Virus record (IMG/VR): IMGVR_UViG_3300046533_000085
Location: 1 to 32,098 of that record
DNA: 32,098 nt
DNA from: a virus
Strand: one strand, 5' to 3'
Shown: positions 13,432 through 17,388 of the stretch, one piece after another
Layout: each line of letters starts with the position of its first letter
Position numbering within the stretch: position 1 is the first letter of the stretch
Notes under the pieces: generated by a model
The model's database searches: none
The model's input: the letters and a program-made list of their open reading frames with translations, nothing else
Told to the model about the DNA's origin: nothing
Position numbers and translations under genes: made by a program

Positions 13432-15336
13432 ATGGCCGACCAAGAGGAAGCGGTAAAAATAGTTATTGAGGTCGTCGACAAATTTTCCAAACCGCTGATC
13501 GATTTAAGAAAAGAAATAAGCACGCTCGCCGACAAGGGCGGCGACGGCACGATGAAAACCGTCAAAGGTTTTTACGAGCTGCGCGACACCGTGCACACCG
13601 CTTCGCGATCCATCACCTCGACACTGATGCCGAGCCTCAAGGTGTTGGGCCTCGGCTTCGCTGGTGTGGCGGGAACGCTGGCGACGTTTGTCGCCGGATT
13701 GAAAAACCTCGGCGGCGGCATTGCCGAGCTGACCCGGCTCAGCACTGAAACCAAGATCAGCATCGATAAGATGCGCGAGCTGGAATCGGTGGGCCGCCGG
13801 GTCGGCATCAGCTCGGAGCAAATGCGCGCAAGCTTCCGAGGTTTCGGCGAGGAAATGGACAAGCTGCGCAAGGGCGTCGGCGGGTCCGAAAGCCTGTCAG
13901 CGTGGTTTGGACGCGCTGGCATCGGTTGGGCCGCCAACGAATTGCGCGGTATCAAGGATGTCAACAAACAGCTCGATTATGTGTTGGAGCTGGTCGACAA
14001 GATCGAAAACCCGCGAGACAAGCGGCGGGTTTTAGAGCGGCTGCAATTGCCGCCGAACCTTGCACAGATACCGCGAGCCGAGCGGCAACGCGCCATCGAG
14101 GAATACCGCAAGGCTGTCGGGCCGCTCGATAAGCAAACCAAGGAGTCGGCGCATCGCTTTGAGGAAGCGATGTTAAACCTTGCTCTAGCGTGGGAGGTGT
14201 TCACCAAGCGGCTCGCCGAAAACGGCGGCCTCGATGCGATGTCGGCATTGCTCGAAACGGTCGCCGCCAACTCGAAAACCTTTGCCGACAACATCAGCAC
14301 GGCGGCGAAGGCTCTACGGTTCCTGTTCGGCGGCAATGTGATCAAACCCGGCGAGGCATCCGGCGGTGGCGGATTAAAGCGGCAAAGCGCACCGGGCCCG
14401 GGCGGTGACGATCCGGCCAAGGTCATCAAGACCGGCACCAGCGAGGGCGTGGTTGACGCCTTCAAAAAGCTGGCGCTCGACATGGGCGGTGATGGGGCGG
14501 GCGGCACGTTCGGCGGCGCGCCGGTCATCCGCGCCTCGCTTGGCCCGAGCGGCGGCGGCGGCGGCGGCGGCGGTGGCGGCCAGCGCGGCCCCGGTGGTCC
14601 TGGCGGCGATCCGGCAGCGGCACCGGGCGGTGTCTCTCCGGGCGGCGGCGGCAGCGCGCCGAACCAAGGCGACCGGCCCGGCTACATCGGCGGCACCGTT
14701 AAGATCGGCGGCAAAACCTTCCATTGGGGTTCGGGCGGCGGCGGGCGTGGCTCGATCCCCTATGGTGATTTCCCGGTCAACGTCGGGCCCGGCGCGGGCA
14801 TCGGTGCCATTGGCCAGCGCATCGGCTCAATCGGCACCATCGGGCGGCCCGGCGGCGAGATCGACGATCCGAAATATCCCGGGCGACCGCGCACCGGGAT
14901 TCAAATCCATCCGTCGAGCGGCGCGATGCTCGACCGGCTCTATACGCAAGGCTGTTTCGGCGTGCCACGCAGCGAGTGGCCCGCGTTCAAAAAAATATTG
15001 TTAGAGGAAGCGGCCAAGGGGCCGCTGATGCTGCACATCGGGCGCGACGGTAAGGCCGAGATTTTGGGCAAGGAAGAATTTGAGGCGCGCAAAAAGGTAC
15101 CGCTGCCGCGATCCCGCCCGGCAGAGCTACCCGACAAGGACGAGACACCGCCGCCGCCGCGCGAGCGGTTGCGCGAGGCCGCCAACGACGAGCCGGGCAA
15201 GGTCGAGGGCGCGGCCAAGGTGCGGGTCGACCTCAACGGTTTCCCGCGCGGCACCAAAGCAACGGCGGCATCGAGCGGGGTGTTTAACGAGGTCGAGCTG
15301 CATCGCGGCCATGTGCCGCTAACCGAAAGCGCGTGA
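13432..15336 (+). CDS. Tape measure protein paralog 1 with Tlde1/DUF2778-like L,D-transpeptidase-type domain
   Basis: 634 residues. The N-terminal 290 or so are helical with a hydrophobic stretch (residues about 64-100, LKVLGLGFAGVAGTLATFVAG), as in tape measures that set tail length and plug the tube. A Gly-rich linker (about 365-420) follows. Residues about 420-560 contain FHWGSGGGGRGSIPYGDFPV, then IHPSSG with His493 and TQGCFG with Cys508, a His/Cys spacing and context reminiscent of DUF2778/Tlde1 L,D-transpeptidase-type enzymes. The end (VRVDLNGFPRG...VELHRGH) matches the end of the next gene. AAGGA precedes the ATG. This is the expected tape-measure position after the chaperone. The enzymatic assignment is motif-level. 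Confidence 0.8.
   Translation: MADQEEAVKIVIEVVDKFSKPLIDLRKEISTLADKGGDGTMKTVKGFYELRDTVHTASRSITSTLMPSLKVLGLGFAGVAGTLATFVAGLKNLGGGIAELTRLSTETKISIDKMRELESVGRRVGISSEQMRASFRGFGEEMDKLRKGVGGSESLSAWFGRAGIGWAANELRGIKDVNKQLDYVLELVDKIENPRDKRRVLERLQLPPNLAQIPRAERQRAIEEYRKAVGPLDKQTKESAHRFEEAMLNLALAWEVFTKRLAENGGLDAMSALLETVAANSKTFADNISTAAKALRFLFGGNVIKPGEASGGGGLKRQSAPGPGGDDPAKVIKTGTSEGVVDAFKKLALDMGGDGAGGTFGGAPVIRASLGPSGGGGGGGGGGQRGPGGPGGDPAAAPGGVSPGGGGSAPNQGDRPGYIGGTVKIGGKTFHWGSGGGGRGSIPYGDFPVNVGPGAGIGAIGQRIGSIGTIGRPGGEIDDPKYPGRPRTGIQIHPSSGAMLDRLYTQGCFGVPRSEWPAFKKILLEEAAKGPLMLHIGRDGKAEILGKEEFEARKKVPLPRSRPAELPDKDETPPPPRERLREAANDEPGKVEGAAKVRVDLNGFPRGTKATAASSGVFNEVELHRGHVPLTESA
13954..14054 (+). repeat. Near-identical tape-measure repeat, copy 1
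   Basis: This 101-base stretch matches 15862-15962 in the second tape-measure gene with about five mismatches, at a constant offset of 1908 bases equal to the gene spacing. Flanking parts of the paralogs are more diverged at the DNA level, so this block is a candidate for recent gene conversion or strong constraint. Confidence 0.75.
14548..14580 (+). repeat. GGC triplet run (poly-glycine linker)
   Basis: An uninterrupted series of GGC/GGT codons encodes the polyglycine hinge separating the tape-measure body from the cargo domain. A similar but shorter run sits at 16555-16582 in the paralog. Confidence 0.6.

Positions 15337-17388: not shown

Follow-up and report, generated by a model that had tools for sequence, protein, structure and literature searches.

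The window, that is the whole stretch of DNA that was analysed, is a virus record of 32,098 bases with terminase, portal, sheath, tube, tail chaperone, hub and baseplate genes, and its tail genes are of the Mu-like type as judged by matches to Pfam and PHROG profiles. Two tape-measure genes lie side by side among them, between the PF10618 and PF10109 genes on the 5' side and genes of the PF07157 and gp44 families on the 3' side:

10983..12503, + strand: tail sheath (PHROG 165, E 2e-154; PF17482/PF04984)
12553..12933, + strand: tail tube protein (PF10618, E 5e-33)
12914..13309, + strand: tail assembly chaperone, directly 5' of the tape-measure pair (PF10109 Phage_TAC_7, E 2e-10)
13432..15336, + strand: tape measure paralog 1, 634 aa, with a cargo of predicted L,D-transpeptidase fold (PHROG 2276, E 3e-11, residues 8-298)
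15340..17388, + strand: tape measure paralog 2, 682 aa, with a putative lysozyme cargo (PHROG 2276, E 6e-13)
17389..18638, + strand: Mu gp43-like baseplate hub/DNA circularisation protein, two overlapping reading frames
18640..19773, + strand: Mu gp44-like baseplate hub (PF22255, E 2e-12; PHROG 177, E 9e-52)

The N-terminal part of the split gp43-like protein matches PF07157 and PHROG 184, the C-terminal part PHROG 184. The split is also found in the Hyphomicrobiales-type relatives that were read, including those with a single tape measure, which led to rejection of a tie between the split and the tandem arrangement; in P. fluorescens (L027) the gp43-like protein is a single reading frame of 418 aa. 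Elsewhere in the window a Peptidase_S78 prohead protease and the major capsid protein are fused in one reading frame of 707 aa (3914-6037), a tail-fibre region (24892-28242) encodes a collagen-repeat protein and a Laminin_G_3 lectin-like protein, and an Amidase_3 protein (28523-29062, E 3e-23) is the likely endolysin.

Architecture of the two paralogs

The second tape-measure gene starts 3 bases past the stop codon of the first, and the two proteins are paralogs with 65% identity over 404 aa (BLASTP, E 2e-167), aligning without gaps to about residue 292 and with insertions beyond, so that the stretch from body to linker differs by about 30 aa between them. Tape-measure profiles match the first 300 residues of both. 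The C-terminal tails give a separate match (BLASTP, 38% over 76 aa, E 1e-08), and the cargo segments between hinge and tail do not align to each other. A preliminary description had proposed tandem paralogs with a gap-free N-terminal body, a common linker, a polyglycine hinge and a related C-terminal tail, differing in the domain between hinge and tail; both reading frames are intact, all these elements are found in both proteins, and His493, Cys508 and Glu478 stand where it had placed them. By hydrophobicity, the body of paralog 1 contains a hydrophobic segment near aa 71-95. The parts are:

13432..14307, + strand: paralog 1 scaffold body, aa 1-292, in gap-free alignment with paralog 2
14431..14469, + strand: TGTSEGVVDAFKK linker of paralog 1, read directly
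14551..14583, + strand: poly-Gly hinge of paralog 1, approximate limits, read directly
14671..15093, + strand: cargo 1, predicted L,D-transpeptidase (YkuD)-fold domain with His493 and Cys508 (AlphaFold2 model and structural matches)
15094..15333, + strand: C-terminal tail of paralog 1, slot-1 type, LNGFPRGT
16432..16470, + strand: TGTSEGVVDAFKK linker of paralog 2, read directly
16555..16587, + strand: poly-Gly hinge of paralog 2, approximate limits, read directly
16681..17127, + strand: cargo 2, putative tail lysozyme domain with Glu478 (PF18013 Phage_lysozyme2, E 2e-17)
17128..17385, + strand: C-terminal tail of paralog 2, slot-2 type, RIDLAG...ASENA

An assembly artefact was rejected as the source of the pair, since many contigs that were assembled independently have it too, among them 100%-identical copies in other samples (L005, L006).

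What do the two cargo domains look like? Cargo 2 is clearly a member of the Phage_lysozyme2 family by profile (64 bits against a cut-off of 28.2, residues 451-581). An equivalent of Glu478, the putative catalytic residue, is found in all 13 contexts listed, the search pattern itself having included this Glu, and the domain would act as a lysozyme. Cargo 1 matched no relevant family in Pfam (whole protein, E <= 1; domain, E <= 5) or NCBIfam (domain, E <= 1), a PDB sequence search with a profile of the L,D-type cargos returned nothing relevant, and its model gave only weak matches in a viral fold library (top E 0.075). The AlphaFold2 model, made from 7 sequences (pLDDT 71.7, pTM 0.74), was weakly matched by plain Foldseek as well, with L,D-carboxypeptidases at the top (best E 0.15). 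With VIA-align all 50 of the 50 rows listed were L,D-transpeptidase-type enzymes at Z 4.6-6.4, the best listed being Salmonella Tlde1a at a middling Z of 6.4, in line with the earlier proposal of an L,D-transpeptidase/Tlde1 fold for this domain. In the sequence His493 is followed by Thr506, Gly507 and onwards, read as (S/T)-x-G-C, and the equivalents of the His, Ser/Thr, Gly and Cys are invariant in 15 distinct contexts. Given the unanimous structural rows and these invariant residues, and despite the middling Z, the assignment of cargo 1 to the L,D-transpeptidase fold is a good one at the level of a model, and an enzymatic role appears plausible. The Tlde1 motif is (S/T)HGC (PMC9638812), and at the place of its second His all the sequences compared have Gln, Ala or Glu. 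Cargo 1 is therefore called an L,D-transpeptidase-fold domain and kept out of the Tlde1 family, membership of which was rejected on the missing His and the lack of a Pfam or NCBIfam match. In the walls of Hyphomicrobiales 3-3 cross-links are abundant, and L,D-transpeptidases make them. This wall chemistry could explain why a phage would carry an enzyme of this fold.

Recurrence, cargo exchange and selection

Relatives were found by scans with the paralogs and with the tail sheath, which served as anchor and as basis for a tree independent of the tape measures; the scans brought in more than 60 contigs, and by the genes read 3' of the sheath four sets were distinguished. The tandem arrangement recurs: about 20 related contigs in clades A and B have it. 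In clade A (the window, L007, L008, L010, L012-L015) slot 1 carries an L,D-type domain, or an M15-like one in L008, and slot 2 a lysozyme domain in the window and L010 and a SleB-like one in L007, L008 and L012-L014. In clade B (L024, L035, L040, L042, L044, L050 and others) the order is reversed, with lysozyme in slot 1 and the L,D-type domain in slot 2, and the rule that clade A had suggested, that slot 1 always holds the peptide enzyme, was rejected on this account. Clade C (L038, L056) has one tape measure, which bears an L,D-type domain. Clade D, comprising L026 (a Bradyrhizobium sp. SRL28 prophage), L106, L108 and L109, is again tandem, its scaffolds giving no phmmer match to those of the window; slot 1 is lysozyme-like or SleB-like, with an additional amidase-like domain in L109, and slot 2 is M15-like where readable. 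Tandem paralogs are also present in L018, an unrelated phage, where they are 32% identical over 414 aa (E 2e-58). In this myophage (L018:4183-9947) the first paralog carries Phage_lysozyme2 and M15-like domains and the second a DPBB-like domain, by motif only. Such related tape measures as were found in other Hyphomicrobiales genomes are single. The slot-2 tape measure of L106 (5451-6503) has only 350 aa and may have suffered a truncation or frameshift close to the end of the contig. In L057 (5353-7405) the only tape measure is split over two overlapping frames; L056, with an identical sheath protein, has it intact.

On the sheath tree clade C lies inside the A/B group, and well-supported branches force no fewer than 4 switches between tandem and single tape measures. 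Read most simply, the tandem state was gained in the lineage of A and B and again in D, with losses or replacements in C, and L018 represents yet another origin outside this group. Among 50,697 phage records tblastn found no match to paralog 1 or its cargo, to the protein of gene 2 of L024, or to the scaffolds of L018 and L026, and a pattern scan of genome contigs with the scaffold alignment found no relative.

The cargo is modular. In the slot-2 proteins of L010 and L012, compared in blocks of 30 residues, the scaffolds are 77-100% and the tails mostly 83-100% identical, whereas the cargos are only about 20% identical; the breakpoints lie close to the Gly-rich hinge and the Pro-rich linker. 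This is a direct picture of cargo exchange and, together with the reversed order in clade B, bears out the earlier idea of a duplicated scaffold with interchangeable cargo. Wall-attacking domains are thus exchanged between sister scaffolds, which probably lets one tail deliver two complementary enzymes.

In pairs with both cargos readable, one is lysozyme or SleB-like and the other L,D-type or M15-like, and replacements stay within the class. This is suggestive of one glycan-cutting and one peptide-acting cargo per pair, and only suggestive because the SleB-like and M15-like calls are by motif and slot 1 of L109 has the amidase-like domain. The SleB-like assignment is a guess from the motif with a poor model (pLDDT 61) that gave no meaningful fold match, a PDB sequence search with a profile of this cargo returned nothing relevant, and the M15-like class, defined by motif alone, has no Pfam match. 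Some single-tape-measure relatives combine the two-enzyme set in one protein, e.g., CHAP and SleB-like in L104, and several others (clade C; L097, L098, L100, L102) have one recognisable enzyme only, so that two enzymes are not required. Among the sheath relatives, L065, L069, L074, L082 and L085 have long single tape measures of 778-1076 aa with apparently two to three wall-active domains each (CHAP, M15-like, DPBB-like).

Tails and scaffolds follow different groupings. The C-tails of slot 1 of clade A are more like slot 1 of clade B (0.50) than slot 2 of clade A (0.40), that of paralog 1 being nearer to clade B slot-1 tails than to its own neighbour, and those of slot 2 of clade A are more like slot 2 of clade B (0.49) than slot 1 of clade B (0.38). 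The slot-2 tails, including that of paralog 2, form one group (91/89); the slot-1 tails have a common 2-residue gap but were not recovered as one group. In this sense the C-tails are slot-specific across clades. In clade A the scaffolds cluster within their own phage clade rather than with the matching slot of the other clade (100/100), as would be expected if the duplication preceded the A/B split and homogenisation followed, or if there were two duplications and an exchange of tails. Within the window itself a tract of gene conversion is seen:

13876..14040, + strand: gene-conversion tract in paralog 1, approximate (alignment codons about 149-203)
15784..15948, + strand: gene-conversion tract in paralog 2, approximate, defined by private shared sites

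The window copies have 20 private shared nucleotide sites, mostly in codons 149-203, compared with 0-4 in cross-phage control pairs. Gene conversion thus keeps part of the two scaffolds alike, and such conversion is possible without functional need.

Both copies are under purifying selection, with dN/dS of 0.10-0.29 for the bodies, 0.08-0.30 for the cargos and 0.08-0.58 for the tails. Neither copy is therefore decaying, and together with the intact reading frames this led to rejection of the reading that one of them is a pseudogene, a point that the preliminary description had raised. Phage recombination could be imagined to have produced the duplication as a neutral or passing side effect without joint function, since tandem duplications and mosaic exchange are frequent in phages and clade C has apparently lost the tandem state or had it replaced. 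However, the arrangement arose repeatedly, it was kept over deep divergence (body identity between clades A and B is 43%) and dN/dS is well below 1 in both copies, and we consider this explanation very improbable. In every pair the spacing of the two genes is between -4 and +3 bases, suggesting coupled translation. Up to the linker the scaffolds of clades A and B measure 333-374 aa, although the full proteins vary in length, and a steady scaffold length is as expected if both paralogs must fit one tail length.

Proposed assembly of the pair, and known systems

Coiled-coil trimers of the tape measure occupy the tail lumen, their C-termini docked on the hub or spike, and trimers or hexamers have been reported or suggested (PMC7048315, PMC11042391, PMC10996793). 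How could two paralogs be accommodated? The tape measure is duplicated and both copies are kept, and we judge it slightly more probable than its opposite that they co-assemble in one tail to deliver both enzymes. Briefly, each copy has a lumen scaffold of near-equal length, a Gly-rich hinge, an exchangeable, putatively wall-active domain and a slot-specific C-tail that probably docks on the baseplate hub. What the data show is paralogy, modular cargo, selection and recurrence, whereas co-assembly and the activity of the enzymes are inferred. Made from coupled genes, both would assemble together in the same tail lumen, perhaps three of each, contraction would release them together, and the glycan-cutting and peptide-stem enzymes could then act on the wall at one spot. 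Co-assembly is favoured because the C-tails are slot-specific and the scaffolds are kept alike. Counted in its favour were the paralogy and shared architecture, the position between chaperone and hub, the tandem pairs kept in A and B and separately in D and L018, scaffold length, gene spacing, gene conversion, dN/dS, the pairing of classes, the single tape measures with two enzymes and the published structures of lumen tape measures; counted against it were the single-tape-measure relatives with one enzyme, the classes assigned by motif only, the amidase-like domain of L109, the possibility of conversion without need and the difference of about 30 aa between body and linker. A more far-reaching form, a hetero-oligomeric lumen tape measure that docks on different hub sites, brings glycan-cutting and peptide-acting enzymes together and evolved at least three times, is tentative and would have somewhat less than an even chance of being right.

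Alternatively, each tail may contain one tape measure only, so that there are two virion types with different wall enzymes as bet-hedging across hosts or wall states. The scaffolds are alike in length and sequence and the solved tape measures are homotrimers, as this would have it, but a pairing of two enzyme classes would be needless if each virion enters alone, the slot-specific tails suggest different docking, and the adjacent, apparently coupled genes show no sign of switching, which together make it unlikely. It is also conceivable that one copy measures the tail and the other has become an accessory of the lumen or tip with no role but to bear an enzyme, for which the slot-specific tails and the sufficiency of a single tape measure in clade C could be cited. 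Since both scaffolds are full length, under similar purifying selection and partly homogenised by conversion, this seems quite unlikely.

In the usual view each tail has a single tape-measure protein, present as a homo-oligomer. With a pair that is kept and recurs, two proteins could measure one tail at once, and the tail could carry a divided, modular enzyme payload. Moreover, the relatives form a natural set of cargo swaps on scaffolds that hardly differ, which makes the roles of scaffold, cargo and C-tail separable, with a bearing on how phages match their entry enzymes to host wall chemistry. In the open-licence literature no report was found of two tape-measure paralogs in one phage or of a transpeptidase-type domain in a tape measure; enzymatic tape measures are known, and tandem, cargo-partitioned ones are without a report found in that literature.

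The gene order and the neighbouring families are those of the Mu-type tail operon (sheath, tube, chaperone, tape measure, gp43, gp44, gp45), from which the window departs by having two tape-measure genes in tandem and a gp43 divided between two reading frames. Cargo 1 shares its predicted fold with Tlde1a (7UMA; PMC9638812), an L,D-carboxypeptidase/transpeptidase of the type VI secretion system (T6SS), and like it has a paired His and Cys and a Ser/Thr in the x-G-C motif; unlike Tlde1a it lies inside a phage tape measure, has no sequence-family match and has Gln, Ala or Glu in place of the second His. The domain of cargo 2 is itself the same as in the Phage_lysozyme2 (PF18013) tail lysozymes, and its setting in a tape-measure pair differs. 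Duplication has also shaped the tape measures of Clostridium botulinum prophages, there as repeats inside one gene, whereas the window has two paralogous genes (PMC3271669). The closest parallels in kind are mycobacteriophage TM4, whose tape measure is reported to have a peptidoglycan hydrolase motif (PMC1796659), and phiCbK, whose gp95 is a tape measure with a CHAP domain (PMC3556154). As in the window, a tail-length protein there bears a wall-degrading domain and is proposed to act at entry (PMC1796659, PMC3556154). These phages have one tape measure each, however, while the window has two paralogs with different, exchangeable domains.
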